Source of the DNA: an uncultured Hippea sp.
GTDB taxonomy: Bacteria > Campylobacterota_A > Desulfurellia > JAADFJ01
Reading direction: 5' to 3'
DNA length: 14,439 nt
Assembly: GCA_913009315.1 (NCBI GenBank)
Contig: CAJVZA010000053.1
Location: 1 to 14,439 of the forward strand
Made by a program: the position numbers and the translations under genes. How positions within the stretch are numbered: the first letter of the stretch is position 1; each line of letters begins with the position of its first letter. This document shows, piece after piece, positions 1 through 14,439 of the stretch. The notes under the pieces were generated by a model, which had not been told where the DNA came from, did not search any database, and saw nothing but the letters and a program-made list of their open reading frames with translations.

Positions 1-43
1 AGGTTTCCCATATACTTCGTTAAACTTCTTTGAATTAACCCGT
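1..43. repeat. 43-bp terminal direct repeat, left copy
   Basis: These bases are identical to the last 43 bases of the window (14397-14439), in the same orientation. This is either the overlap of a circular molecule or a stretch of a repeat present on both sides of the region. Nothing in the repeat codes for a recognisable product. Confidence 0.95.
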
Positions 44-90
44 TAGTCCTTCAGAAGTTTGCCTTGTCTATAGAAAACCTCATAAAAAGC

Positions 91-125
91 TGTGAATCTG
101 CTTATTGTGCAGTGGTCTCATAATG
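91..125 (+). repeat. 35-bp inverted repeat arm, left copy
   Basis: This arm is the reverse complement of 14084-14118 with 33 of 35 positions matching. Read outward it ends in GGTCTCATAATG; the partner begins CATTATGAGACC. Similarity stops sharply at both edges of the arm, as expected for a terminal inverted repeat. If the two window ends are joined, the two arms face each other and bracket about 438 bp. Confidence 0.85.
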
Positions 126-169
126 ATTTCAAGCAATATGCATGATGCCGAAGCACCTTGAAAAAGGTT

Positions 170-197
170 ATTATGCAGATGATGATGTCTGCATAAT
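170..197 (+). repeat. Perfect 10-bp stem-loop upstream of the small gene
   Basis: Bases 170-179 pair perfectly with 188-197 (ATTATGCAGA / TCTGCATAAT) around an 8-base loop. No T-run follows, so it does not look like a terminator. It lies 57 bases before the GTG start at 254, where it could be an operator or a 5' leader hairpin. The remainder of 1-253 holds the end repeats and no supported gene. Confidence 0.6.
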
Positions 198-253
198 GTA
201 GAGGCAATTTTCGAAACATGCATTGCGGAAAGTTATAAAAAGAGGAGATTTTT

Positions 254-592
254 GTGAACGAAAAAGCAATTACAATCGTTCTTGAATATTCAGATGGATC
301 TTCCTGTAAAATAAAAGGTTCGGCGATTGCAGGCGCTTACGAACCAACCATGGCAAACACTCCTGCATCAAACATCGACAAAGCAAAATTGACAATAGAA
401 TCAATACATGTCCACGATCTTAAGGAAACTTCTATTAATTCTAAACGTTCCAAATCGAGTGTCCAAATCCGTCTGCCTGTGCGTTGCCTGTCTGCATGCC
501 TGCCCGTACAGGCAGGTCTCATAAAGGTACAGACAGCAAAGCTATTGCCAAAATTTACAACACAAAGGGAGCTGATTTGGGATTCAGGATGA
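254..592 (+). pseudogene. Small hypothetical gene whose 3' part is a mobile-element insertion
   Basis: I do not recognise this protein. It starts at GTG 254 behind a good ribosome site (GAGGAG, 243-248) and reads 112 codons. Only about the first 57 residues look like an ordinary soluble protein (MNEKAITIVLEYSDGSS...). From about base 424 the frame runs into miniature inverted-repeat element A, and at 475-519 into a GC-rich hairpin insert. This gives a low-complexity tail rich in Cys, Leu, Pro and Arg. The tail resembles, in a shifted frame, what copy C near 14200 would encode on the minus strand, so it is repeat sequence and not conserved protein. I infer a truncated gene; a short functional protein with a replaced C-terminus is possible. 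It has no obvious link to the downstream operon, which has its own promoter. Confidence 0.5.
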
Positions 593-618
593 TTGTTTAC
601 TGTTAATAGAGACTCTCT
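424..618 (-). mobile_element. Miniature inverted-repeat element, copy A
   Basis: This segment matches copy C (14178-14340) in reverse orientation: 541-600 aligns without gaps to the reverse complement of 14197-14256 at 50 of 60 positions. Its edges are degraded forms of the copy C terminal repeat (GGAAACTTCTATTAAT at 424-439; GTTAATAGAGACTCTCT at 602-618). It is longer than copy C because it carries a 45-base insert at 475-519. It encodes no transposase. It interrupts the small gene at 254 and ends about 220 bases before the operon promoter. Confidence 0.7.
475..519. repeat. GC-rich hairpin insert nested in miniature element A
   Basis: Relative to copy C, 45 extra bases interrupt the shared sequence CAAATCCGTCT|CAT. 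The insert carries a perfect 6-bp stem (CCTGCC 499-504, GGCAGG 511-516) and a flanking CTGTCTG (488-494) that can pair with CAGACAG just outside at 530-536. It shares GCCTGTCTGC with the hairpin at 13977-14033. It is much richer in G+C than its surroundings and looks like a REP-type dispersed palindrome. Confidence 0.6.
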
Positions 619-942
619 CTATTAAACTTGCTGCGAAGAACATATTCTCACGTGAGATATACCGGGTAAAATCTGTCCGCAGACCGATTTTAAACTTTAT
701 CATGAGTTTTTTGATATAACAACAGGCAAGATGGAGAAAGTTTGAGTTGTCTTGTACCGGACGACAAGGAGTATTTTTTGAAAATAAAATTATGCAGAAG
801 TCCTTAGATATAAGATTTTGACAAATGGTAATATTGCACAATTGACATTCCATGAGTCAAGAGATAGAATAAAATTGTTTAAAAAGGATTTTGGTCTGAT
901 TAAAATTTACAATTGCAACTATTAAAGAATTGAGGGTTACAA
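619..942 (+). other. Leader region of the operon
   Basis: No intact gene is supported. Short stretches at about 689-812 read like coding sequence broken by stops, and one base removed near 742 would restore a longer frame, so a decayed gene is possible. A weak stem (CTTGT 751-755 / ACAAG 764-768) followed by TATTTTTT could act as a terminator for upstream transcription. The operon promoter is at 842-870 and the ribosome site of maeB (GAGGG) at 932-936. I see no cobalamin riboswitch; the predicted untranslated leader is only about 65 bases. Confidence 0.5.
842..870 (+). promoter_or_regulatory. Predicted sigma70 promoter of the maeB-to-clc operon
   Basis: A perfect -35 box TTGACA (842-847) is separated by exactly 17 bases from TAGAAT (865-870), one mismatch from the -10 consensus. 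Transcription would start near 877, leaving a leader of about 65 bases before the ATG at 943. A second TTGACA at 818-823 has no good -10 partner. This is the best promoter seen ahead of the ten-gene block. Confidence 0.65.
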
Positions 943-3219
943 ATGAGGATAAAAGATAAAGAAGTATTTAATTACCATAGTAAGGGGCGACCCGGGAAGC
1001 TTGAAATTCACCCAACAAAGCCTTTAACAACCCAGCTTGATTTAGGCTTGGCTTATACTCCAGGAGTCGCATCGGTATGCAAGCTTATCGAAGAAGACAA
1101 ATCAAACAGCTACCTTTATACTGCAAAGGCAAATCTCGTTGCAGTCCTATCCAACGGAACAGCCGTTTTGGGATTGGGAAATATCGGAGCAAGCGCATCT
1201 AAACCGGTTATGGAAGGAAAAGCGGTATTGTTCAAAAAATTCGGTGATGTTGATGTTTTTGACATAGAGGTTGATGAAAAAGATCCCGATAAACTGATTG
1301 ACATAGTCAAATCACTCGAACCTACGTTCGGAGGAATAAATTTAGAAGATATAAAAGCGCCTGAGTGTTTTTATATAGAAGAAAAGCTTACCGAAATGAT
1401 GAGTATTCCGGTTTTTCATGATGATCAGCACGGAACGGCTATTGTTACCGGAGCCGGTCTGCTGAATGCGCTTTCATTATCGGGAAAATCAATCGAAGAT
1501 ATTAAAGTCACAGCGAGCGGTGCAGGTGCAGCCGGTTTATCATGTCTTAAGCTCTGGGAAAAGCTTGGCGTAAGGCACGAAAATATTACAGTCTGCGACA
1601 GCAGCGGAGTAATCTACAAAGAAAGACAGAAGCATGTAAACAAATATAAAGAATATTTTGCCATAAATACAAACAGACGAACATTGGAAGACGCTATGGA
1701 AGGCGCCGATGTTTTCCTTGGTGTATCAAAAGGCAATATCGTAACAAAAAAGATGGTAAGATCGATGACCGGAAATCCTATAATTTTTGCCCTGTCCAAT
1801 CCGACACCGGAAATAAGTTATGAAGCCGCAAAAGAGGCAAATCCTGACGCAATAATGGGAACCGGAAGATCAGACTATCCCAACCAGATAAATAATCTGC
1901 TGGTTTTTCCTTTTATTTTCAGAGGCGCTTTGGATGTAAGAGCAACTGCAATCAATATCCAGATGCAGAAAGCAGCCACATACGCTCTGGCGAGGCTTGC
2001 AAAATCACCCGTGACATCCGAAGTGATAAAAGCATATAACGATAAAAATCTTTCATTCAGCCGCGACTATATAATTCCCAAACCGTTCGATCACCGTCTT
2101 TTGGGTTACGTAGCCCCTGCGGTAGCCGAAGCTGCTGTGAATTCGGGAGTAGCTGGAATAAAAAGTTTTCATATCGGTAAATACAAGGAGCAGCTGAAAG
2201 AAAGGACAAATGTTTCGTACAGTTTTATGCGCAACATTTTTGCCAGGGCAAAGGAAGATCTTCAAAGAATATTGTTTACTGAGGCAGATTCCGATGAAAT
2301 ACTGTTGGCTATGGATATACTTATGACACAGAATCTTGCTAAACCCGTGCTGATCGGAAACAAAAAGGAGCTTATAAAAACTTCCGGAGATAAAAATATA
2401 GAAATTGACTGGGATTTCGTTGAAGTAATCGATCCCGAAGAATTTCCTTTTATGGATGACTACGCGGAAAAGCTGTATGAGAAGCGCCGAAGAAAAGGAA
2501 TGACGATCTCAAAAGCCAAAGATTATGTGCAGCACAGAAGAAATTATCTGGCAGCTATGGCACTTGACCAAGATTATGTTGATGCAGTTGTTACCGGTCA
2601 GCTTTACGCCTATTCGACAGCCGTAAAGCCATTTTTAAAGATATTTCAAGATGGATCTTTTGAACATTCTGCGGTTGCCGGCATCTATATAATGATTGCC
2701 AAAGATCATCTGTATATACTTGCAGATACAACCATCAATATAAACCCCGATGAAGCGACTCTGGCCAATATTGCCACACATGCCGCAGCCTTTGCAAAAA
2801 AAGTGGTCGGTATTGATCCGGTAATTGCCATGCTTTCATTTTCTAACTTTGGAGAAAATGAAAATCTTTACACACAAAAAGTAAGAAAGGCAACTGAAAT
2901 TATTCATTCGGTTGCGCCTGAATTGATAGTTGATGGTGAAATCCAGGCCAATGTGGCACTGGATGCCGATATTATATCAAAACTCTATCCGTTTTCTAAA
3001 CTGAATGGACACAGACCCAACATTCTTATATTCCCCGATCTTGACTCGGCAAATATCGCTTATAAAATGCTCTATAAAATCGGCGGAGCGATTCCGATCG
3101 GCCCGATTTTAACGGGTCTTCCGAAGTCGGTTCATGTGCTTGAAAGAACAAGCAGCGTAGACAACATAGTTAATATGGCAGCAATTGCTGCAGTTGATGC
3201 ACAAAATAAAAAGAAATAG
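943..3219 (+). CDS. maeB: Malic enzyme with C-terminal phosphotransacetylase-like domain (MaeB type)
   Basis: Catalyses oxidative decarboxylation of malate to pyruvate and CO2 with NAD(P)H, in the cytoplasm. At 758 residues it has the usual MaeB length. The malic domain carries YTPGVA (38-43), the EGKA lysine (93), NLEDIKAPECF (133-143) and the metal-site HDDQHGTA (159-166). The nucleotide-binding domain has GAGAAG (193-198), SNPTPE (285-290) and GTGRSDYPNQINN (306-318). Residues from about 430 form a phosphotransacetylase-like domain whose catalytic segment reads SFSNFGENEN instead of the SFSTKGSA of true enzymes; in this family the domain is regulatory and senses acetyl-CoA. Start chosen for GAGGG six bases upstream and the promoter just before it. 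sucC follows after 18 bases. It would connect the C4 end of the pathway to pyruvate. NAD versus NADP preference cannot be judged from sequence. Confidence 0.93.
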   Translation: MRIKDKEVFNYHSKGRPGKLEIHPTKPLTTQLDLGLAYTPGVASVCKLIEEDKSNSYLYTAKANLVAVLSNGTAVLGLGNIGASASKPVMEGKAVLFKKFGDVDVFDIEVDEKDPDKLIDIVKSLEPTFGGINLEDIKAPECFYIEEKLTEMMSIPVFHDDQHGTAIVTGAGLLNALSLSGKSIEDIKVTASGAGAAGLSCLKLWEKLGVRHENITVCDSSGVIYKERQKHVNKYKEYFAINTNRRTLEDAMEGADVFLGVSKGNIVTKKMVRSMTGNPIIFALSNPTPEISYEAAKEANPDAIMGTGRSDYPNQINNLLVFPFIFRGALDVRATAINIQMQKAATYALARLAKSPVTSEVIKAYNDKNLSFSRDYIIPKPFDHRLLGYVAPAVAEAAVNSGVAGIKSFHIGKYKEQLKERTNVSYSFMRNIFARAKEDLQRILFTEADSDEILLAMDILMTQNLAKPVLIGNKKELIKTSGDKNIEIDWDFVEVIDPEEFPFMDDYAEKLYEKRRRKGMTISKAKDYVQHRRNYLAAMALDQDYVDAVVTGQLYAYSTAVKPFLKIFQDGSFEHSAVAGIYIMIAKDHLYILADTTININPDEATLANIATHAAAFAKKVVGIDPVIAMLSFSNFGENENLYTQKVRKATEIIHSVAPELIVDGEIQANVALDADIISKLYPFSKLNGHRPNILIFPDLDSANIAYKMLYKIGGAIPIGPILTGLPKSVHVLERTSSVDNIVNMAAIAAVDAQNKKK

Positions 3220-3237
3220 ATACAGGGAGAATGGTAA

Positions 3238-4395
3238 ATGAAATTACACGAATTTCAGTCTAAGGGGATTTTAGCGCACTATGGCATAAGTGTTCCGAAT
3301 GGTGTTGTGGTAACAGAACCGCAGGAAGCATGGGTTGTTGCAAAACAGTTGGGTGCTCCCGTAATATTGAAAGCTCAGGTGCATGCGGGCGGAAGAGGAG
3401 AAGCCGGAGGAGTGAAAATAGCAAAATCGGCCGAAGAAGCCGAATCAATTGCAAAAAAGATGATCGGCATGAAACTTGTAACAAAACAGACAGGGGCCGG
3501 CGGCAAAATAGTGAAAAAACTACTTGTCGAAAAAACGGCTAATATCGAAAAAGAGTTCTATATCAGCATATCAATTGATAGAAAGTCAGGCCGGCCGATG
3601 TTTTTGGCAAGCAGCGAAGGCGGGATGTCCATAGAAGAGGTTTCCGAGACAAATCCGGATGCTATTTTTATGAGGACGATTGATCCGACTATAGGTATTA
3701 TGCCGTCTCAGGCAAGAGAAATTGCATATAGGCTCGGGCTTTCAAAACAGGTAAAGCAGACCTCAAAGCTCATTATCGGAATTTACAAAGCATTCATAGA
3801 TAATGATGCTTCTATGGTAGAACTTAATCCGTTTATATTGACCAAAGAAGGAGATATTCTGGCGCTTGATGCAAAAATAAATATAGATGACAGTGCAATG
3901 TTCAGACATAAAGATATTGCCAAACTGCGTGATGTCACAGAAGAAACGGAGACGGAAATAAAATCTTCATTTTACGGACTTTCATTTGTGCAGCTGGAAG
4001 GAAATATAGGATGCATGGTTAACGGTGCAGGACTTGCAATGGCAACAATGGATCTTATAAAAATTTCCGGAGGCGAGCCCGCAAATTTTCTTGATATAGG
4101 CGGCGGAGCGGGAAAAGAAAAGGTTGGTCATGCGTTTTCTCTTATTTTGCAGGATGAAAACATCAAAGCCATTCTTATCAACATCTTCGGCGGGATAACA
4201 AGATGCGACGAAGTTGCAAACGGAATTATATCTGCGGCAAAAGAACTGGAACTTACACTTCCTATGGCTGTCAGGCTGAAAGGAGCAAATTTCGAAGAAG
4301 GAAGCAAAATATTGAAGGAATCAGGACTTAAATTTGAGGTTTACAGCAGCCTCAATGATGCTGCAGCTGCCGCCGTAAAAATGGCAAACGCTTAG
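3238..4395 (+). CDS. sucC: Succinyl-CoA synthetase (ADP/GDP-forming), beta subunit
   Basis: Beta subunit of the enzyme that converts succinyl-CoA plus ADP (or GDP) and phosphate to succinate, CoA and ATP (or GTP). The 385 residues match the bacterial family length. The N-terminal ATP-grasp fold is recognisable from KLHEFQSKGILAHYGI and the glycine-rich HAGGRGEAGG near residue 50. VELNPFILT and LDAKINIDDSA follow near residues 195-220, and the C-terminal CoA-ligase domain contains NIFGGITRCDEVANGI near 315-330. GGGAG (3225-3229) precedes the ATG. sucD begins 12 bases after the stop. In propionyl-CoA oxidation this step recovers the ATP spent by the carboxylase; in propionate formation it runs in reverse. 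Confidence 0.96.
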   Translation: MKLHEFQSKGILAHYGISVPNGVVVTEPQEAWVVAKQLGAPVILKAQVHAGGRGEAGGVKIAKSAEEAESIAKKMIGMKLVTKQTGAGGKIVKKLLVEKTANIEKEFYISISIDRKSGRPMFLASSEGGMSIEEVSETNPDAIFMRTIDPTIGIMPSQAREIAYRLGLSKQVKQTSKLIIGIYKAFIDNDASMVELNPFILTKEGDILALDAKINIDDSAMFRHKDIAKLRDVTEETETEIKSSFYGLSFVQLEGNIGCMVNGAGLAMATMDLIKISGGEPANFLDIGGGAGKEKVGHAFSLILQDENIKAILINIFGGITRCDEVANGIISAAKELELTLPMAVRLKGANFEEGSKILKESGLKFEVYSSLNDAAAAAVKMANA

Positions 4396-4407
4396 ATTGG
4401 AGGAAAA

Positions 4408-5280
4408 ATGAGTATTCTTGTTAATAAAAATACAAAAGTAGTAATTCAGGGTATGACCGGCAAAGAAGGAACAATACATGCAACCGGATGCATAGATTAC
4501 GGCACTAATGTAGTTGCCGGAGTTACACCCGGAAAAGGCGGAACCACTCACTTGGGAGTTCCTGTCTTTAATACGGTAATGGAAGCTGTTGAAAAAACAG
4601 GGGCAAACTGCTCACTCATTTTTGTTCCGCCTCCGTTCGCTGCAGACGCAATAGTGGAAGCGGCTGACGCAAATCTCAAACTTATCGTATGCATAACAGA
4701 GGGAATTCCCGTTAGAGATATGGTGATGGCCAAACGATTCATTGAAGGCAAGGGAATAACCCTGATAGGGCCGAACTGCCCCGGAATACTTTCTGCGGGC
4801 GAATGCAAAATCGGAATAATGCCCGGAAATATTTTCAAGAAAGGAAAAGCCGGTGTAATAAGCAGAAGCGGAACTCTTGTTTATGAGATAGTTGATCAAC
4901 TGACCCATGAAGGTGTCGGAGAAACTACATGCGCCGGACTGGGAGGAGACCCGGTCATAGGAACAAAATATAATTTTTGGCTGGAGCAATTTCAGAATGA
5001 CCCCGATACCGAGGCAATTGTAATGGTCGGCGAAATTGGCGGAGACGATGAAGTTGTTGCGGCAGATTATATAAAAAAGCATGTAACCAAGCCGGTTGTT
5101 GCGTTTATAGCAGGCAGAACGGCTCCTGAAGGAAAAAGAATGGGGCACGCCGGAGCAATCATCACCGGCAAAAAAGGTACTGCTATGTATAAAATGAATG
5201 CTTTAAGAGAAGCGGGAGCAACTGTTGTTGAAAATCCGGCCTTAATTGGCAAAGCAGTAAGAAACCTACTTTCAAACTAA
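4408..5280 (+). CDS. sucD: Succinyl-CoA synthetase, alpha subunit
   Basis: Alpha subunit, carrying the CoA-binding Rossmann domain and the histidine phosphorylated during catalysis. Visible signatures are [12 protein letters not shown] (13-24), GPNCPGI (121-127), SRSGTLVYE (152-160), the EIGG acidic loop (209-212) and the active-site histidine 247 in RMGHAGAI. The 290 residues are normal for the family. GGAGG directly upstream gives a strong ribosome site. Its TAA stop shares one base with the ATG of the carboxyltransferase gene (TAATG), which suggests translational coupling between SucD and the carboxylase genes. Forms a complex with the product of the preceding gene. Confidence 0.96.
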
Positions 5281-6824
5281 TGAGATCGCTGTTAGATAAG
5301 CTGAGGAAACTTGAAAAAATAGCTGAACTCGGCGGCGGCAAGGAAAAGATAGAAAAACAACATAAAGCAGGCAAACTGACGGCGCGCGAAAGAATTGAAA
5401 TTCTGCTTGATCCGGGAAGTTTTGTTGAGCTTGATAAATTTGTTGTTCACCAGTGTCACAATTTTGGAATGGAAAAAACCAAAATTTACGGAGACGGCGT
5501 TGTAACCGGATACGGCACGATAAAAGGCAGACAGGTTTATATTTTCAGCCATGATTTTACAACCTTCGGAGGCTCTCTTTCGGGAGCCTTCGCAAAAAAG
5601 GTTTGCAAAATTATGGATCTCGCCGTTCAGAACGGAGCTCCGGTAATCGGACTTAACGATTCCGGAGGAGCAAGAATACAGGAGGGCGTTGTCAGTCTTG
5701 CCGGATATGCGGATATTTTTTTGAGAAATACACTTGCGAGCGGTGTTGTGCCGCAAATTTCAGTTATAATGGGACCTACTGCAGGCGGTGCCGTATATTC
5801 TCCGGCTGTAACAGATTTTACCATAATGGTGCAGGACACTTCATTTATGTTTATCACGGGACCGGATGTCATTAAATCTGTCACCGGTGAAGAGATTGAT
5901 AAGGAATCTTTAGGGGGAGCCAAAGTTCACACTGAAAAAACTCAGGTTGCTCATTTTGCTGCAGACAATGATGCTGAGGCGCTGCTTAAAGCCGTAGAAC
6001 TGCTCTCTTTTATACCTCAAAATAATATGGAAATTCCGCCTGACCTGCCGACTTCGGATCCTGCAGACAGACGCGATGAGTCAATATACGATTTAATTCC
6101 CACAGATGTCAACAAACCGTATGATATGAAAAATCTCATTGCGAAAATTGTTGATGATGAAGCCTTTTTTGAAGTTCAGGAAAATTATGCAAAAAATATG
6201 GTTGTCGGCTTTGCTCACTTTGGAGGAAAATCGGTTGGTATTGTGGCGGATCAGCCAAAATTTTTTGCCGGAGCTCTCGATTATAAAGCAGCCATCAAAG
6301 CTGCACGATTTGTAAGATTTTGCGATGCATTCAATATCCCCATAATAACATTGGAAGATCAGCCAGGATATATGCCGGGAGTCGATCAGGAGCATAACGG
6401 TGTTATTGTTCACGGTGCAAAACTTTTGTATGCTTATGCGGAAGCTACAGTCCCAAAGATAACGATTGTGGTAAGAAAGGCCTACGGAGGAGCTTACGAT
6501 GTTTTAGGTTCAAAACATCTGAGAGCTGATATCAATTTGGCATATCCGACAGCTGAAATCGCTGTTATGGGTCCCGATGGAGCCGTCAACATATTGAAAA
6601 GGCGGGAACTGCAGGCATCAAAGAATCCTGATGCTTTGAAGGCTAAACTGGTAGCAGAGTACCGCGACCAATTTGCCAATCCGTTTATTGCCGCCTCATT
6701 AGGCTACATTGATGAAATAATAGATCCGGCCGATACAAGACTGAAGATAATTGCATCTATTAATCTTCTAAAGAATAAGCGGCAGACTCTTCCGCCCAAA
6801 AAACATGGCAATATACCGCTGTAG
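5280..6824 (+). CDS. pccB: Propionyl-CoA carboxylase carboxyltransferase (beta) subunit
   Basis: Transfers CO2 from carboxybiotin to propionyl-CoA, giving (S)-methylmalonyl-CoA. The 514 residues form two crotonase-like halves. The first has the oxyanion-site SGGARIQEG (128-136) and GPTAGGAVYSPA (165-176). The second has QPGYMPGVDQEHNG (361-374), HGAKLLYAYAEATVPK (378-393) and RKAYGGAYDV (399-408). The tail PPKKHGNIPL is typical of PccB/MmdA proteins. The family also includes the alpha subunit of Na+-pumping methylmalonyl-CoA decarboxylase. I prefer carboxylase because biotin carboxylase and carrier genes follow and no membrane decarboxylase subunit is present. Acyl-CoA specificity is inferred from the mutase and epimerase neighbours. 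LEDQPGYMPG departs slightly from the more common DVPGFLPG. The start overlaps the sucD stop by one base. Confidence 0.9.
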   Translation: MRSLLDKLRKLEKIAELGGGKEKIEKQHKAGKLTARERIEILLDPGSFVELDKFVVHQCHNFGMEKTKIYGDGVVTGYGTIKGRQVYIFSHDFTTFGGSLSGAFAKKVCKIMDLAVQNGAPVIGLNDSGGARIQEGVVSLAGYADIFLRNTLASGVVPQISVIMGPTAGGAVYSPAVTDFTIMVQDTSFMFITGPDVIKSVTGEEIDKESLGGAKVHTEKTQVAHFAADNDAEALLKAVELLSFIPQNNMEIPPDLPTSDPADRRDESIYDLIPTDVNKPYDMKNLIAKIVDDEAFFEVQENYAKNMVVGFAHFGGKSVGIVADQPKFFAGALDYKAAIKAARFVRFCDAFNIPIITLEDQPGYMPGVDQEHNGVIVHGAKLLYAYAEATVPKITIVVRKAYGGAYDVLGSKHLRADINLAYPTAEIAVMGPDGAVNILKRRELQASKNPDALKAKLVAEYRDQFANPFIAASLGYIDEIIDPADTRLKIIASINLLKNKRQTLPPKKHGNIPL

Positions 6825-6833
6825 GATTATACA

Positions 6834-8348
6834 ATGAAAATAAAGAAAATTCTTATAGCAAACAGAAGCGAAATTGCAATCAGAATTGCAAGGGCATGCA
6901 GGGAGATGGGCATAAAAACGGTTGCGGTTTATTCTGAGATTGACAGGAACAGTCTGCATACCCGATACATGGATGAAGCATACTACATAGGAAAATCTCC
7001 GGCATCGGAAAGCTATCTGAGAATTGATAAAATTATTGATGCCGCCTTGAAATCGGGAGCCGATGCCATACATCCGGGTTATGGATTTTTGGCTGAGAAT
7101 TCGGAATTTGTCAAAGAATGCGAAAAAAACGGTATAATTTTTATCGGACCTTCACGTGATTCAATCTATCTGCTTGGAAACAAAACAAGAGCAAGAACAA
7201 AGATGAAAAGCTCCGACGTACCTATTGTTCCCGGAACAACAGAACCGGTAAAAAGCTACGATCTGCTTGAACAGGAAGCTGAAAAAATAGGATATCCCAT
7301 TATGCTTAAAGCTGCAGCAGGCGGAGGCGGCAAAGGAATTAGACTGGTAAAAAATGAGAGTGAACTGAAATCTGCGTTTGAAATTGCTTCGTCCGAAGCA
7401 AAAGCCGCATTCGGCGATGATACCATTTATATTGAAAAAGCAATTATCAATCCAAGGCATATTGAAGTGCAGATAGCTCGTGATAACCACGGAAACAGTT
7501 TGTGGTTTCCAGAAAGAGAATGCTCTATTCAAAGACGTCACCAAAAAGTTTTGGAGGAGTCTCCATCGGCTGCAATAGATAGCCGCTTACGAGAAAAAAT
7601 CGGCAGAACAGCTGTCAAAGCCGCTGACGCAGCAGGGTATAACTCGGTAGGAACCGTTGAATTTCTGCTTGACGAAAAGTATAACTTCTATTTTCTTGAA
7701 GTAAATACACGGCTTCAGGTTGAGCATCCCGTAACTGAAATGGTAACAGGCATCGATCTTGTAAAACTGCAAATTGAGATCGCCGAAAACAAACCTATTG
7801 AGTTGACCCAAGACGACATAAAACTGAATGGTCATGCTATTGAATGCAGAATATACGCCGAAGATCCGGAGAAAAATTTTAGGCCGTCACCGGGAAAGGT
7901 TATCGGTCTGAGAGTTCCGGGAGGAATCGGTGTAAGAAATGATAACGGTATTTACGAAGGAGCGGTAATTCCATTATTCTATGATCCGATCGTAGGAAAA
8001 CTGATAACATGGGGTGACAGTCGAACTCAAGCTATAGAAAGGATGAAACGCGCGCTGTCGGAATATCTCGTGAAAGGTATAAAAACCACTATATCGTTTC
8101 ATCGCAAAATACTCAATGATCAATCGTTTATTGACGGCAGCATCTCTACGGAATTTGTTGATAATCTGCTGAAAATAAAAAATGAACCGGATAAACGGCT
8201 TTCTGAAGTTGCCGTTATTGCAGCTGCCATATTATCGGAAATTAACAAATCCCATATTGCAGCCGGCGACGATAACAACATAAAAACAGGCAGCTCCAAC
8301 TGGAAAAACTTCGGAATGAGAATGGGACTATGTCAGCAATGTCTATAG
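6834..8348 (+). CDS. accC: Biotin carboxylase subunit of an acyl-CoA carboxylase
   Basis: ATP-dependent carboxylation of protein-bound biotin, feeding the neighbouring carboxyltransferase. ATP-grasp enzyme of 504 residues, slightly longer than E. coli AccC, as common in propionyl-CoA carboxylase systems. Signatures: KILIANRSEIAIRI (5-18), HPGYGFLAEN (80-89), ATP loop AAGGGGKGI (161-169), ERECSIQRRHQK (227-238) and the catalytic EVNTRLQVEHPVTE (289-302, Arg293). TAGGA overlapping the upstream stop acts as ribosome site; the gap is nine bases. No lipoyl/biotin domain is fused; the carrier is the separate gene at 8496. The last few residues after SNWKNFGMRMGL look unconserved, and just downstream lies miniature element B. 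I cannot exclude that the native end or original junction with the carrier gene was altered by that insertion. Confidence 0.93.
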   Translation: MKIKKILIANRSEIAIRIARACREMGIKTVAVYSEIDRNSLHTRYMDEAYYIGKSPASESYLRIDKIIDAALKSGADAIHPGYGFLAENSEFVKECEKNGIIFIGPSRDSIYLLGNKTRARTKMKSSDVPIVPGTTEPVKSYDLLEQEAEKIGYPIMLKAAAGGGGKGIRLVKNESELKSAFEIASSEAKAAFGDDTIYIEKAIINPRHIEVQIARDNHGNSLWFPERECSIQRRHQKVLEESPSAAIDSRLREKIGRTAVKAADAAGYNSVGTVEFLLDEKYNFYFLEVNTRLQVEHPVTEMVTGIDLVKLQIEIAENKPIELTQDDIKLNGHAIECRIYAEDPEKNFRPSPGKVIGLRVPGGIGVRNDNGIYEGAVIPLFYDPIVGKLITWGDSRTQAIERMKRALSEYLVKGIKTTISFHRKILNDQSFIDGSISTEFVDNLLKIKNEPDKRLSEVAVIAAAILSEINKSHIAAGDDNNIKTGSSNWKNFGMRMGLCQQCL

Positions 8349-8364
8349 CCAAAGCAATAAGAAC

Positions 8365-8470
8365 GGCACCTCTGTCATAATCTGTGGAATATAATTTTGA
8401 GCTGCAATTTGCGTCTTATAGGCGGACTCGGGCTCTGAATTTGAAATACACTGGATTAATAGAGGCGCTC
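8365..8470 (+). mobile_element. Miniature inverted-repeat element, copy B, inside the operon
   Basis: About 106 bases in the same orientation as copy C. They share the exact 16-mer CTGCAATTTGCGTCTT (8402-8417 and 14269-14284). The edges are imperfect versions of the family terminal repeat: GGCACCTCTGTCATAATC at 8365-8382 and GGATTAATAGAGGCGCTC at 8453-8470. It lacks some of the interior found in copies A and C. ATAAG occurs beside each edge (8357-8361, 8471-8475), a possible target duplication though three bases off on the left. It accounts for the only large gap in the operon. A TATAAT at 8390-8395 has no good -35 partner. Confidence 0.65.
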
Positions 8471-8495
8471 ATAAGTAATTTCATTTGAGGTATTC

Positions 8496-8993
8496 ATGTA
8501 TTATGTAGGTCTGAAAGAAGAAGAAAGTAAAGTAGAGGTTAGCGGCAGACGCGGTTCAATATTTGATGTCGAAATAGATGGAAAGCTTCGGCAGGTTGAT
8601 TTCGTAAAGGCTGAGAATTCGTATTCACTTATCATAGACGGCAAGTCGTATGAAATTGATTGCGAGAAATCCAAAAACGGGTACGATATCTGGATGGGCG
8701 GTAACTATTTTCAGGTATCGGTTTTGAGTGAAGCCCAAAAGCGCATACAATTGTCTAAAAAAGGGAAAAAGTCAGGCGGTCCTCAAATAATAGAAACTGA
8801 AATGCCCGGGAAAATTGTTTTAGTAAAAAAAGTTACAGGCGAAACCGTAAAAAAAGGCGAAACCGTAGTGGTGCTTGAAGCGATGAAAATGCAGAATGAG
8901 ATTCTGAGTCCCAAAGATGGAACCATCGAAGAGATGTATGTAAAAGACGCTCAAATGGTAGAAGCATCCGACAAACTTTTCAAAATCAAATAG
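8496..8993 (+). CDS. Biotin carboxyl carrier protein of the acyl-CoA carboxylase
   Basis: Carries biotin between the carboxylase and carboxyltransferase subunits. The C-terminal biotinyl domain (about 97-165) has TEMPGKIVLVKK and the biotinylation motif EAMKMQN with lysine 131. The N-terminal 80 residues are a beta-rich region (DVEIDGKLRQVDF, SLIIDGKSYEID) seen in stand-alone carriers of propionyl-CoA or related decarboxylase systems. A short Lys-rich linker (81-93) joins the two, without the usual Ala/Pro-rich stretch. TTGAGG lies about six bases before the ATG. Separated from the biotin carboxylase gene by 147 bases containing miniature element B, but only six bases from the mutase gene. 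The same domain occurs in Na+-decarboxylases, so the partner assignment rests on context. Confidence 0.9.
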   Translation: MYYVGLKEEESKVEVSGRRGSIFDVEIDGKLRQVDFVKAENSYSLIIDGKSYEIDCEKSKNGYDIWMGGNYFQVSVLSEAQKRIQLSKKGKKSGGPQIIETEMPGKIVLVKKVTGETVKKGETVVVLEAMKMQNEILSPKDGTIEEMYVKDAQMVEASDKLFKIK

Positions 8994-8999
8994 ATTTGC

Positions 9000-10649
9000 A
9001 TGAAAACAAAGCAAAATTGGGAAAAAGAATCTGTTGAACCTGTTTTGAAAAAAGTAGGCGAAAGAAGGGATAGATTTTCTACAACGTCGAATATTGAAGT
9101 CGAACGACTCTATACGCCCTCACCAATCAGCGAAGATTATTTAGAAAATCTCGGTTTTCCGGGAACTTTTCCTTTTACAAGAGGAATTTATCCGACAGGT
9201 TACCGGTCAAGATTCTGGACAATGCGTCAATATGCCGGGTTTGGTGATGCAGAAAGTTCCAATAAACGATATCGATATTTGCTCTCTCAAGGACAAACCG
9301 GACTTTCAATAGCATTTGATCTTCCAACACAGATTGGATACGATTCAGATGATTCCCATTCGGAGGGAGAAGTAGGCAAGGTAGGAGTAGCGATAGATTC
9401 TCTGAACGATATGGAAATCCTTTTTGACAGTATTGATCTGGAGAAGGTAAGCACATCAATGACTATCAATTCGACAGCGGCTATTCTTCTGGCAATGTAT
9501 ATTGCCTTGGCAAAAAAAAGAGGAAACAACCTGTCAAAAATATCCGGTACCATACAAAATGATATTCTGAAAGAATATATTGCTCGGGGAACATACATTT
9601 ATCCGCCCTCCCCCTCTATGCGGATTATAAGAGATCTGTTTTCGTTCTGTTCGGAAAATGTACCGAAATGGAACACAATAAGCGTGAGCGGATACCACAT
9701 AAGAGAGGCCGGATCGACGGCAGCCCAGGAGGTTGCATTTACGCTTGCCGACGGTATAAGCTATGTTGAAACGGCAATAAAGTCGGGGCTTGATGTCGAT
9801 AAATTCGCGCCCAGAATATCGTTTTTCTTTGGCGCTCATAATGATTTATTTGAGGAAGCGGCAAAATTCAGAGCAGCAAGAAGACTCTGGGCGAGAATTA
9901 CAAAAACACGTTTTGCTCCCAAAAATCCAAGATCTACGATGCTGAGATTTCATACTCAGACTTGCGGATCGACCCTCACGGCTCAGCAGCCGGTCAACAA
10001 TATCATCAGAGTTACAATTCAGGCACTTTCAGCTGTGCTCGGAGGCACACAATCGCTTCATACAAATTCGTTCGATGAAGCACTGGCTCTTCCTACGGAA
10101 GATTCGGCAAGAACGGCTCTGAGAACCCAGCAGATCATAGCTTACGAGAGTAAAATTGCCGATACGTTAGATCCGCTTGCAGGCTCTTATTATGTTGAAT
10201 CACTCACGAATCAGATGGAAAAAGAGGCATCCGATTATATTGATAAGATAGATAATATGGGGGGCATGGTCAAAGCTATTGAAAATGGGTTCCCTCAACG
10301 AGAAATACAAAATGCAAGTTATGAATATCAAAAGAAGATTGAATCTTTTGATGAAATTATCGTAGGGGTAAATAAATTTAAAATAGATGAAAAAAAACCG
10401 ACAGGACTACTTAAGATCGATGAAAGTCTGGCAAAAAAACAGATAAAAAAACTGAATAATCTCAGAAAGATTCGCGATAATCGAAAAATTGAACATGATA
10501 TTAAAATGATAAAAGAAGCTGCAAAAGATGAAACCAAAAATCTGATACCGCCAATTATTGAAGCAGTGTCGGATTACATGACAATTGGTGAAATCTCAAA
10601 TACGCTTCGCGATATTTTTGGGGAGTATCAGGAGCAGGTGATAATTTGA
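9000..10649 (+). CDS. mcmA1: Methylmalonyl-CoA mutase, large (substrate-binding) subunit
   Basis: Interconverts (R)-methylmalonyl-CoA and succinyl-CoA by an adenosylcobalamin radical mechanism. 549 residues cover the TIM-barrel part only; the B12-binding domain is a separate gene at 11029, as in two-part mutases of archaea and many anaerobes. Tyr78 in RQYAGF and Arg196 in ARGTYI match the residues that hold the methylmalonyl carboxylate in the Propionibacterium enzyme (Tyr89, Arg207); isobutyryl-CoA mutases have Phe and Gln there. His233 in SGYHIREAG and [14 protein letters not shown] (348-361) are also intact. [15 protein letters not shown] (317-331) is as in two-part forms. No clear ribosome site precedes the ATG, so reinitiation after the carrier gene is likely. 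The TGA stop overlaps the next gene's TTG start. Confidence 0.95.
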
Positions 10650-11032
10650 TAGATCATATCGGTATAGCAGTTAAATCTTTGGACAGCGCAGCAAAGAAAT
10701 GGGAGACAATATTAGGCATCAAAGCGGACATGATAAGTGAGGTTAAAAGCCAGGCCGTTAAAGTTGCCTTTTTTGGAACAGAAAATGGAAAAATTGAACT
10801 TTTAGAACCCACAAAAAACGATAGTCCTGTAAGAAAATTTTTAGACAAGAAGGGAGAAGGCGTTCATCATATTGCAATCAGAACAAAAAATCTCAACTCT
10901 TTAATAGACAAACTACGAAAAGACAATCAGGAGATTGCAGAGCCGTTTATAGGCGCAGAAGGGGCACGCGTAACATTTATTCATCCAAAATATTCCAATG
11001 GCGTGCTTATTGAGCTTGTGGAGATAAAATGA
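10646..11032 (+). CDS. mce: Methylmalonyl-CoA epimerase
   Basis: Interconverts (S)- and (R)-methylmalonyl-CoA, joining the carboxylase to the mutase. A 128-residue VOC-fold metalloenzyme with [13 protein letters not shown] at the start, IELLEP (50-55), EGVHHIAI (71-78) and GVLIELVE (119-126). Expected metal ligands His4, Glu51, His75 and Glu124 are present. The start is a TTG at 10646 that overlaps the mutase TGA by three bases; AGGAG lies 11 bases upstream, and the protein begins exactly where family members do, so the rare start is well supported. Its own stop overlaps the next start as ATGA. Slightly shorter than average but complete. Confidence 0.93.
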
Positions 11033-11430
11033 GAAAACTAAGAATTATAGTAGCAAAGGCAGGTCTGGACGGACATGACAGAGGCGCAAAAGTCGTAAGC
11101 AGAGCATTGAGAGACGCCGGTTTCGAAGTAATTTATACCGGACTCAGACAATCCCCGGAACAAATAGTCTCTACTGCTATAGATGAGGGAGCCGATTTTA
11201 TAGGAATATCTATTCTTTCAGGCGCTCACATGATTGTAGCAGAAAAAATAATCCGGATTCTGAAAAAACGCAACGCCGCTGATATTCCGGTATTTATGGG
11301 TGGAATAATACCGGATTCGGATATCCCTGATTTAAAAAGGATTGGGATAAAAGCTGTGTTCGGTCCGGGAACCCCAACATCGAAAACGATAAATTATCTA
11401 AAAAACTATCACGAAAATGACAACAGTTGA
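11029..11430 (+). CDS. mcmA2: Methylmalonyl-CoA mutase, small cobalamin-binding subunit
   Basis: Holds adenosylcobalamin and pairs with the large subunit. The 133 residues are one B12-binding Rossmann domain. It has DGHDRGAKVV (14-23), where His16 is the lower axial cobalt ligand, SILSG (61-65), and GG (91-92) with VFGPGT (110-115), the full DxHxxG...SxL...GG signature. The best ribosome site of the downstream half of the operon (GGAG, 11020-11023) precedes it by five bases. Its ATG overlaps the epimerase TGA (ATGA) and its end overlaps the GTPase gene by 14 bases. Corrinoid proteins of methyltransferases share this fold, but the context and the start KLRIIVAKAGLDGHDRG fix it as the mutase subunit. 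Confidence 0.95.
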   Translation: MRKLRIIVAKAGLDGHDRGAKVVSRALRDAGFEVIYTGLRQSPEQIVSTAIDEGADFIGISILSGAHMIVAEKIIRILKKRNAADIPVFMGGIIPDSDIPDLKRIGIKAVFGPGTPTSKTINYLKNYHENDNS

Positions 11431-12283
11431 AAACAGCAGAAGACAGCTCGCCCAGCTCATACGAAAAATTGAAGAGGGTGAAGAATTTTCCTACTATACA
11501 AAAAGGATTCTTTCTCAAACAATTGGAATAACCGGTTCGGGCGGGGTTGGAAAATCAACTTTAATTACCAGGCTTATACAGCATTATCGTGAAAAAGGGA
11601 AAAAGGTGGCTGTTGTTGCAACAGATCCGTCATCACCATTTTCAGGCGGGGCACTTCTTGGTGACAGAATAAGAATGCAGCGCTTTGCAACAGATCCCAA
11701 TGTGTTCATAAAAAGCGTAGCATCAAGAGGAAAACAGGGAGGAATCGCTCTTTCAAGCGGAGCAATTGCTTCAGCACTGTCAGAAGCGGAATATGATCCA
11801 ATAATTATAGAAACTCTCGGAATAGGTCAGGATGAAATTGATGTATCAAAATTAGTGGATACATCGATAGTTATGTTTTCTCCAAGAACGGGTGATCAGA
11901 TACAGGCGATGAAAGCCGGCATTATGGAAATCGGGGATATTTTTGTTGTAAATAAGTCAGATATGCCTGCCGCCGATGCTATGGCAGCCCAACTGACAAA
12001 AGAAATATCCGAATCCGGAAGAAGAATAGAGATTATAAAAACGGTCGCCACAACAGGCGAAGGTATAGACAAACTTTTAGAAGCAATAGAGGAACATCAA
12101 AAGCTTATTGATGCGATCGGCAAGAAAAAAGAGAGCGCGGTCTATCAAATTGAATCAATATTGAGAGACAAGATATATTGCTATATAAAAGAATCTTTGC
12201 AGAAAAAAAATTATTGGGACAAAGCAATCAAAGATATTATAAACGGTGAAAGCATAGCTGAGATTATCAAACAGCTGGTATGA
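11417..12283 (+). CDS. meaB: MeaB/ArgK-type G3E GTPase, methylmalonyl-CoA mutase chaperone
   Basis: GTPase that gates loading and repair of adenosylcobalamin in methylmalonyl-CoA mutase. The P-loop is TGSGGVGKST (39-48), followed by ATDPSSPFSGGALLGDRIRMQ (68-88), the IETLGIGQDE region (131-140) and the guanine-specifying NKSD (179-182). At 288 residues it is shorter than the well-studied MeaB proteins (about 330), mainly at the C-terminal dimerisation arm. The P-loop (GSGGVGKS, where many members have GxPGxGKS) and TLGIGQDE (commonly TVGVGQSE) differ from the usual form, suggesting a divergent branch. The start overlaps the B12-subunit gene by 14 bases without a clear ribosome site, so translation is probably coupled. 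Its stop overlaps the ClC start (ATGA). Confidence 0.92.
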   Translation: MTTVENSRRQLAQLIRKIEEGEEFSYYTKRILSQTIGITGSGGVGKSTLITRLIQHYREKGKKVAVVATDPSSPFSGGALLGDRIRMQRFATDPNVFIKSVASRGKQGGIALSSGAIASALSEAEYDPIIIETLGIGQDEIDVSKLVDTSIVMFSPRTGDQIQAMKAGIMEIGDIFVVNKSDMPAADAMAAQLTKEISESGRRIEIIKTVATTGEGIDKLLEAIEEHQKLIDAIGKKKESAVYQIESILRDKIYCYIKESLQKKNYWDKAIKDIINGESIAEIIKQLV

Positions 12284-13953
12284 AACAAAAAAGCATTAAA
12301 TTTCTTAATGCTCTGGTTGTTCCCATCCTTGTTGGTGCCATCGGCGGATATTCTGCCATATTTTTCAGAGAACTGATAAAATTAAACGAATCACTATTTT
12401 CGACTTTATTCAATACCGATCAAAACAGCTATATTTATATAATATTGCTGCCGCTGATTCTTGTTTTCTCCAGGATAGTCTCAAAAAATTTCCTGAAAGA
12501 CACAAGCAACACAACAATAAATTCCGTTGCAAGAAATATTGCTATCAAAAAAGGAGATTTTGATTATAAGAAGGGAATAATTGCCGTAATTTTGACCTCC
12601 ATACATGTGGGAGCCGGAATACCTGTAGGCAGAGAAGGTCCAATCGCGAAATTAGGCAGTTCTATCTCTTCGCTTTTTTCAAAAATGATACCATTTACGG
12701 CAAGCAACGTCCCCTTGTATGCAACTTGCGGCGTTTCATCTGCTATTGCAGCAACATTCAATGCTCCCATTGCAGGAATCGTTTTCGGAATTGAAATTAT
12801 TCTTGGAAAAATAAGTATCGACACTTTAACACCTGTAACAATCTCTGTAATAACCGGAACGCTGATTTCCCGGTTTTATCTTGGAAATTATCCAACCGTT
12901 GCAGTTCCCCATCTTGTGTTCAGTTTTCATCTTTTATATTTCGCCCTGTTTAGCTCAATAATTTTTGCCCTATATGTCCTGGTATTTAAAAAACTTGCCG
13001 CATCTGTCGGCATGCTGGAGAAAAAGCTAAATATCAATCCTTATCTCTTTATCGCCATTATCGGTCTGATTGTAGGAGTTCTGATAGCTGTTATGCCTGA
13101 AATTAAAGGCATTGGATATGGCGAAATTGAAACTATTTTTTCTCAAAAACAAAACCTGATTCATGCTTTTGTTCTTTCTGCGACAAAACTAATTGCAACA
13201 GCACTTATTCTGGGATCCAATATTTTTGGCGGGGTTTTTGCTCCTTCGATATTTATCGGAGGTTTTTCAGGCTACTTTCTGGGCGGTCTTGCAAATACCG
13301 TAGATCCAAGAGCAATTGCACTTATAGGCGCCGCTTCCGTAACAGCAGGAATTGCCAATGCTCCGCTTCGTTCGGCTCTTATTGTTATGGAGTTGTCGCA
13401 AAGTTATCAACTAATAGTGCCGATACTTATCGGTTCAGTATTGACAAATTATATAGCTGCGCTTTTTTACAACGATTCTTCATCATACAGAGCAATGCTA
13501 TCAAAAGGATTCGATGTATCGGATACGGAATTGCTAAAGATTTTGAACAAAATTAAAACTGAGGAATTGATTGAGCCTACTCCTATGTTTAGAAAAGAAC
13601 ACACCCTTGTTGAGTTAAAAGATATAATAGAGAAAAGTGAAGCAAAATATTTTCCGGTTTTGGAAGAAAATAAATTAATTGGAATTGTATCATTGAGGGA
13701 TATCAGAATGTCACGAAAAATCGGTGATAACAGAATAGAAAAGATTATGACCAGAAAACCAAGATCGTTAAAGAAAAACAGCAGCGGGTCGGATATTATA
13801 AACTATACATCAAAAATGGATGTTGATCTTGTACCTGTTGTTGATTCAGAAGAAAATTTTGTCGGAATGTTTAATGTTAATAAATTTTTTAGGAAAATAA
13901 GCATCGAATATGCCTGCAGAACCAAATCACAAGAAACAGATCATTTAGAATGA
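12280..13953 (+). CDS. ClC-family anion channel/transporter with C-terminal CBS pair
   Basis: Integral membrane protein of 557 residues: a ClC transport core (about 8-405, many hydrophobic helices) and two CBS domains (about 430-540) that in this family bind adenine nucleotides. The gating-glutamate motif GREGP is at 117-121 (Glu119), the helix-N GGVFAP at 317-322, and NAPIAGIVFGIE at 161-172. Two canonical features are missing. The segment where GSGIP/GxGxPE would lie reads DTSNTTINSV (74-83). The internal proton glutamate (E. coli ClC Glu203) aligns with Ile173. It may therefore be a channel or an unusually coupled transporter; the anion cannot be told. Its ATG overlaps the meaB stop, placing it firmly in the operon although ClC proteins have no known role in this pathway. 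Confidence 0.9.
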   Translation: MKQKSIKFLNALVVPILVGAIGGYSAIFFRELIKLNESLFSTLFNTDQNSYIYIILLPLILVFSRIVSKNFLKDTSNTTINSVARNIAIKKGDFDYKKGIIAVILTSIHVGAGIPVGREGPIAKLGSSISSLFSKMIPFTASNVPLYATCGVSSAIAATFNAPIAGIVFGIEIILGKISIDTLTPVTISVITGTLISRFYLGNYPTVAVPHLVFSFHLLYFALFSSIIFALYVLVFKKLAASVGMLEKKLNINPYLFIAIIGLIVGVLIAVMPEIKGIGYGEIETIFSQKQNLIHAFVLSATKLIATALILGSNIFGGVFAPSIFIGGFSGYFLGGLANTVDPRAIALIGAASVTAGIANAPLRSALIVMELSQSYQLIVPILIGSVLTNYIAALFYNDSSSYRAMLSKGFDVSDTELLKILNKIKTEELIEPTPMFRKEHTLVELKDIIEKSEAKYFPVLEENKLIGIVSLRDIRMSRKIGDNRIEKIMTRKPRSLKKNSSGSDIINYTSKMDVDLVPVVDSEENFVGMFNVNKFFRKISIEYACRTKSQETDHLE

Positions 13954-13976
13954 TTACTGCAGGAAAATTACTTCGC

Positions 13977-14033
13977 CTGTCTGCGTGTAGCACCTGCCTG
14001 CCGCGCGCCAACGGTGCAGATAGATGCAGACAG
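13977..14033. repeat. GC-rich dispersed hairpin just after the operon
   Basis: CTGTCTGC (13977-13984) pairs perfectly with GCAGACAG (14026-14033), and GCACC (13990-13994) with GGTGC (14013-14017) inside it. No T-run follows, so it is not a classic terminator, though it could stabilise the operon's 3' end. Its GCCTGTCTGC motif also occurs in the insert at 475-519, pointing to a REP-like family. Confidence 0.65.
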
Positions 14034-14083
14034 ATCGCTCTGCTCATAGCAACAACAGAGTGCGCCAACCTAATAATTCCTCA

Positions 14084-14118
14084 CATTATGAGACCACTGC
14101 ACAGTAAACAGATTCACA
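14084..14118 (-). repeat. 35-bp inverted repeat arm, right copy
   Basis: Reverse complement of 91-125 with two mismatches in 35. Begins CATTATGAGACCACTGCACA. Similarity ends at the arm boundaries, consistent with a transposon terminal repeat. The interior of the inferred element would lie to the right, towards the window end. Confidence 0.85.
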
Positions 14119-14161
14119 GAAGTCAAAGAAAGGGTGAGATTTAGAAATTAAAATTTGAGGT

Positions 14162-14175
14162 ACTAACCGGTTAGT
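14162..14175. repeat. 14-bp perfect palindrome
   Basis: ACTAACCGGTTAGT reads the same on both strands. It sits just before the left terminal repeat of miniature element C, where it may be an insertion target or protein site. A similar string, TTAACCCGTTAGT, spans the inner edge of the left end repeat (about 34-46). Confidence 0.5.
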
Positions 14176-14177
14176 TA

Positions 14178-14340
14178 AGGGCACTTCTGTTAATCCGTAA
14201 ACGATCATCTTGAGTCCCAAATTCGCCTCCTCTGCGTTGCAAATTTTGGCAATAGCTCTTGTTATTACCTGCAATTTGCGTCTTGATGAGACGGATTTGA
14301 ATTCTCAATTTGAAACGCTTAGAATTAACAGAAGTGCCCT
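14178..14340 (+). mobile_element. Miniature inverted-repeat element, copy C (best preserved)
   Basis: A 163-base element bounded by a perfect 17-base terminal inverted repeat: AGGGCACTTCTGTTAAT at 14178-14194 and its reverse complement at 14324-14340. The interior matches copy A in reverse orientation (14197-14256 against 541-600) and copy B in direct orientation (14269-14284 against 8402-8417). There is no transposase gene, so movement would need an enzyme in trans. No clear target-site duplication is visible at its edges. It lies inside the region bracketed by the 35-base arms when the window ends are joined. Confidence 0.8.
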
Positions 14341-14396
14341 ATAGAATTTAATCCCCTGAAGATTGCCCTTTATTTGACTTCCCTGCGGGCTTTATG

Positions 14397-14439
14397 AGGT
14401 TTCCCATATACTTCGTTAAACTTCTTTGAATTAACCCGT
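14397..14439. repeat. 43-bp terminal direct repeat, right copy
   Basis: Identical to bases 1-43 in the same orientation. Together with the left copy it marks a possible circle of 14,396 bp or the shared part of two flanking repeats. Confidence 0.95.

Follow-up and report, generated by a model that had tools for sequence, protein, structure and literature searches.

MITEs are known from prokaryotes, with examples such as Chunjie of Geobacter uraniireducens and QMITE1/2 of Coxiella (reviewed in PMC10969869). The family described here, designated MITE1, resembles these elements in being shorter than 500 bp without need of coding capacity, and in possessing inverted ends (19 bp), short direct target repeats, tens of copies and size variants (PMC10969869). 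Unlike Chunjie and QMITE1/2, MITE1 has a sequence of its own and a target duplication of the 3-bp form TNA.

Two incomplete copies of MITE1 bound the window, i.e., the whole 14,439-nucleotide stretch of DNA analysed here, which comes from an uncultured Hippea sp. Between them lies an operon of the methylmalonyl-CoA (propionyl-CoA/succinyl-CoA) pathway (Table 1). Like other operons of this pathway, it includes mutase, epimerase, MeaB and carboxylase, with all of the main genes in a row on one strand. It departs from such operons in having biotin carboxylase and biotin carrier as distinct proteins, in the sucCD genes and the fusion of malic enzyme with phosphotransacetylase (PTA) located upstream, and in the ClC channel that follows. 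The malic enzyme-PTA fusion heads the entire sucCD, carboxylase and mutase operon. The gene reading agrees with Pfam and NCBIfam matches and bears out the near-complete propionyl-CoA pathway recognised in the original prediction, as well as its remark that replication, partition and mobilisation genes are lacking: none was seen among the listed ORFs, the large plus-strand ORFs being all metabolic or the ClC channel, and no tRNA was seen in the window. The two ends are MITE pieces at which the assembly very probably broke, and the propionate-pathway block between them is then ordinary chromosome.

Table 1. Features of the window, numbered from its first base
Feature	Position	Strand	Evidence or remark
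Left MITE1 copy, 3' part (MITE1 positions 146-265), cut by contig edge	1..120	+	sequence comparison
Shared 43-mer	1..43 = 14397..14439	+	MITE1 positions 146-188
Terminal inverted repeat of left MITE1 copy	102..120	-	
TAA, target-site duplication of left MITE	121..123	+	single TAA in G001 empty site
Malic enzyme fused to phosphotransacetylase-like domain	943..3219	+	PF00390, PF03949, PF01515
sucC, succinate-CoA ligase beta subunit	3238..4395	+	PF08442, PF00549
sucD, succinate-CoA ligase alpha subunit	4408..5280	+	NF004230, TIGR01019 above cut-off
Propionyl-/methylmalonyl-CoA carboxyltransferase subunit	5280..6824	+	PF01039; mmdA-like, below NCBIfam cut-off
Biotin carboxylase subunit	6834..8348	+	PF00289, PF02786, PF02785; TIGR00514 above cut-off
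Biotin carrier / BT domain protein, separate from carboxylase	8496..8993	+	PF00364, PF18140
Methylmalonyl-CoA mutase, catalytic (large) subunit	9000..10649	+	TIGR00641 above cut-off
Methylmalonyl-CoA epimerase	10646..11032	+	TIGR03081 above cut-off
B12-binding subunit of mutase	11029..11430	+	PF02310
MeaB mutase-associated GTPase	11417..12283	+	TIGR00750 above cut-off
ClC chloride channel with CBS domain	12280..13953	+	PF00654, PF00571
TTA, target-site duplication adjoining right MITE	14086..14088	+	differs from TAA at 121-123
Second MITE1 copy, 5' part (MITE1 positions 1-188), interrupted by nested element, cut by contig edge	14089..14439	+	
MITE2, small unrelated element nested in right MITE1	about 14178..14340	+	ends AGGGCACTTCTGTTAAT / ATTAACAGAAGTGCCCT

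Identical contig ends and the MITE1 family

The first and last 43 bases of the window are identical, exactly as the original prediction had stated; the identity ends at 43 bases in a prefix/suffix comparison and is far beyond what chance can account for. The window comprises contig C53 in full, one of the 96 contigs of a 1.74-Mb draft genome, so that the identity concerns contig ends and not the limits of an arbitrary window. Inside the window, no further copy of any tested sub-word of the 43-mer (12 bases and longer) was found. With up to 3 mismatches allowed, 19 copies of the 43-mer are present in the same genome, of which 16 are exact; the reversed 43-mer, used as a control pattern, gave 0 matches. 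Identical ends are thus to be expected for any contig that is cut at two of these copies.

MITE1 is 265 bp long, with inverted ends TGAGACCACTGCACARTAA, 19-bp terminal inverted repeats (TIRs) and a 3-bp TNA target duplication. Its limits, TGAGACCACTGCACAGTAA and TTATTGTGCAGTGGTCTCA, were read outward from copies situated away from contig edges. The same inverted ends bound all five intact off-edge copies in the genome (contigs C5, C14, C24, C43 and C58), and in 5/5 of these intact copies of the 43-mer the 3-bp TNA duplications match. Among other full-length relatives, the flanking duplications agree in C2 and C21 and disagree in C1 and C16. Short, non-coding, furnished with TIRs and target duplications, and present in many copies at unrelated loci, the repeat at the window ends is a MITE family. 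Elements of only 51-57 bp, composed of two facing TIRs with almost nothing between them, are also seen on C4, C10, C13, C14, C39, C55 and C1, and some of these bear target duplications.

A search with the MITE1 TIR gave 143 matches in the own genome when as many as 3 mismatches were allowed. With the limit set at 2, there were 141, together with 126 in G001 and 3 in G002, both of the same genus, and almost none in the rest of the class; so far, high-copy MITE1 has been found only in the own genome and one close relative. The sole exact match to the 43-mer in the public genome collection is JAADFJ010000055.1 (locus L009), from a Campylobacterota MAG, whose TIR variants and their positions agree with those of contig C55 of G001; G001 is thus probably this MAG.

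The two copies at the window ends lie in the same orientation, and the stretch of MITE1 common to both is precisely the 43-mer. The left one is identical at 120/120 positions to the MITE1 copy on C24, and likewise to those on C18 and C76. Copies of MITE1 in the window, on C14 (L003) and on C32 (L008) contain, at differing positions, nested elements of a second MITE-like family, whose ends are AGGGCACTTCTGTTAAT or AGGGCAACTCTATTAAT.

A candidate parent insertion sequence

On contig C15 (L129, ~2300-3373), the first 21 bases of MITE1 immediately precede a transposase fragment of 291 residues that matches DUF772 (PF05598, E 2e-22). This fragment is nearest to IS1182 and IS5 models, yet falls below the NCBIfam cut-offs; the IS copy is truncated, and its TIR is identical to that of MITE1 over 21 bp. 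A possible link of MITE1 to the IS1182/IS5 family (DUF772 plus DDE_Tnp_1) is this 21-bp TIR of the truncated C15 copy. Unlike that family, MITE1 is without a transposase, and outside the 21-bp terminus it showed no clear similarity to the C15 element. No intact copy of the C15-type IS was found in the own genome, and none of the genome's other DDE_Tnp_1 transposase loci is enclosed by a MITE1 TIR pair. Judged from the shared terminal sequence, the parent of MITE1 is likely to be an IS1182/IS5-like element. It is quite probable that the MITE was moved in trans by a transposase of this kind, which would insert it at TNA sites.

The operon in relatives and in its own genome

G001 matches the window over 13.4 kb at 93.7% DNA identity, its mutase is 98% identical, and the whole operon is contained within a 28.6-kb contig. 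There, carB-greA-pyrK-pyrD-lolA lie to the left of the operon and sugar ABC transporter genes to the right, with pyrD and, more weakly, lolA called from profile matches of the own-genome orthologues and the other flanking genes by reading of the sequences. G002 likewise retains this gene order from malic enzyme to MeaB, also in a longer contig.

The own-genome orthologue of the G001 left flank is found on C24 and ends at a MITE in matching orientation. When the lolA side of C24 is joined to the window from base 124, with one TAA kept, the rebuilt sequence and G001 align continuously, with no gap where the two pieces meet; G001 itself has no MITE at this left site, only a single TAA. The gap-free junction indicates that the left MITE inserted, with duplication of TAA, between lolA and the operon, and the empty site beside the G001 operon indicates that the MITE came to an operon already resident there.

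As assembled, C24 continues from its MITE (11397-11661; L112), which has TAA on both sides, into the region of a type I restriction methylase (hsdM, identified by reading) and not into the window; the hsdM side has no match in G001. The left join therefore requires either that C24 was misjoined at the MITE or that part of the population is rearranged. On the right, the downstream ABC transporter genes of G001 gave no match in the own assembly beyond short repeat pieces. A part of G001 farther downstream matches C55 of the own genome at 11862-12603, for which no tie to the right end of the window was found.

Broken assembly, excision, carriage or a circle

In the best explanation, C53 would have been cut at both ends inside same-orientation copies of a high-copy, 265-bp MITE. 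Faced with 16 exact 43-mer copies in the genome, the assembler would have been unable to pass, leaving the same sequence at both ends. The methylmalonyl-CoA operon block would then be ordinary chromosome with carB-greA-pyrK-pyrD-lolA on its left, and it is probably assembly, not biology, that made the break. Such breaks are seen elsewhere in the genome. Specifically, at least 21 contig edges, 21 of the 32 inspected, lie inside MITE1, a figure to be read as a count and not as a rate, as the inspected edges were mostly picked for a nearby MITE match. The 28.8-kb contig C18 has identical 88-bp ends, both inside MITE1, and ordinary metabolic gene content, e.g., alanine racemase and glycerol kinase (ORFs read by eye). 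It is a control, showing the same end sign on a contig of ordinary metabolic genes. At the start of C21 (positions 1-20; L050), ACACGACGCTCTTCCGATCT is joined directly to MITE sequence and is presumably Illumina adapter sequence left in the assembly.

It is very unlikely that some members of the population had instead excised the block as a 14.4-kb circle by recombination between the same-orientation MITE copies, with C53 as the excised form and the lolA-MITE-hsdM arrangement of C24 as the scar. MITEs in the same orientation on both sides of the block would permit this event, the circle would show the same TTA/TAA pair as C53, and the operon is absent after the C24 MITE; however, the scar is expected to bear TAA next to lolA and TTA at the opposite flank, and the only candidate, C24, has TAA on both, which is why its role as the scar is disfavoured. 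Likewise, hsdM does not adjoin the operon on the right in G001, and a search of that genome did not find the hsdM segment. The TAA/TAA of C24 is not decisive against excision, because duplications decay with age. If this reading were true, a circle with C24-like scars would represent reversible loss of a catabolic pathway; more generally, loss or amplification of the block through recombination between MITE copies is possible in principle.

It is extremely improbable that two MITEs carry the operon between them as a composite mobile unit. One MITE family does occur at both ends in direct orientation, and the MITE-flanked integrons described in Acinetobacter (PMC10969869) offer a precedent, but the gene order of the operon is the same in G001 and G002, and a composite transposon was rejected because G001 has no MITE at the left site.

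Finally, there is next to no chance that C53 represents a genuine circle of 14,396 bp, whether plasmid or other secondary replicon, as the original prediction had also considered: although its 43-bp ends are identical, this sequence is far from unique in the genome, C18 displays the same sign, G001 and G002, both of the same genus, have the operon within longer contigs (with housekeeping neighbours in G001), the rebuilt empty site places the left end by chromosomal pyrD-lolA, the joined ends would form one MITE with unequal duplications (TTA/TAA) where the intact 43-mer copies all match, and neither a replication, partition or mobilisation gene was seen among the listed ORFs nor a tRNA in the window. 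What stands is the more cautious reading offered alongside it, namely a chromosomal block between direct repeat copies with the assembly broken at the shared sequence, and the repeat can now be named as a MITE.

A contig broken at MITE copies, as preferred here for C53, has consequences for how such sequences are read. Identical contig ends are a widely used sign of circular elements, and by the identical-end test both the 14.4-kb C53 and the 28.8-kb C18 of this draft genome would falsely be taken for circles, owing to a high-copy MITE. A circle and a break can nevertheless be told apart without reads, by comparing the end sequences with the rest of the assembly and by checking the target duplications.
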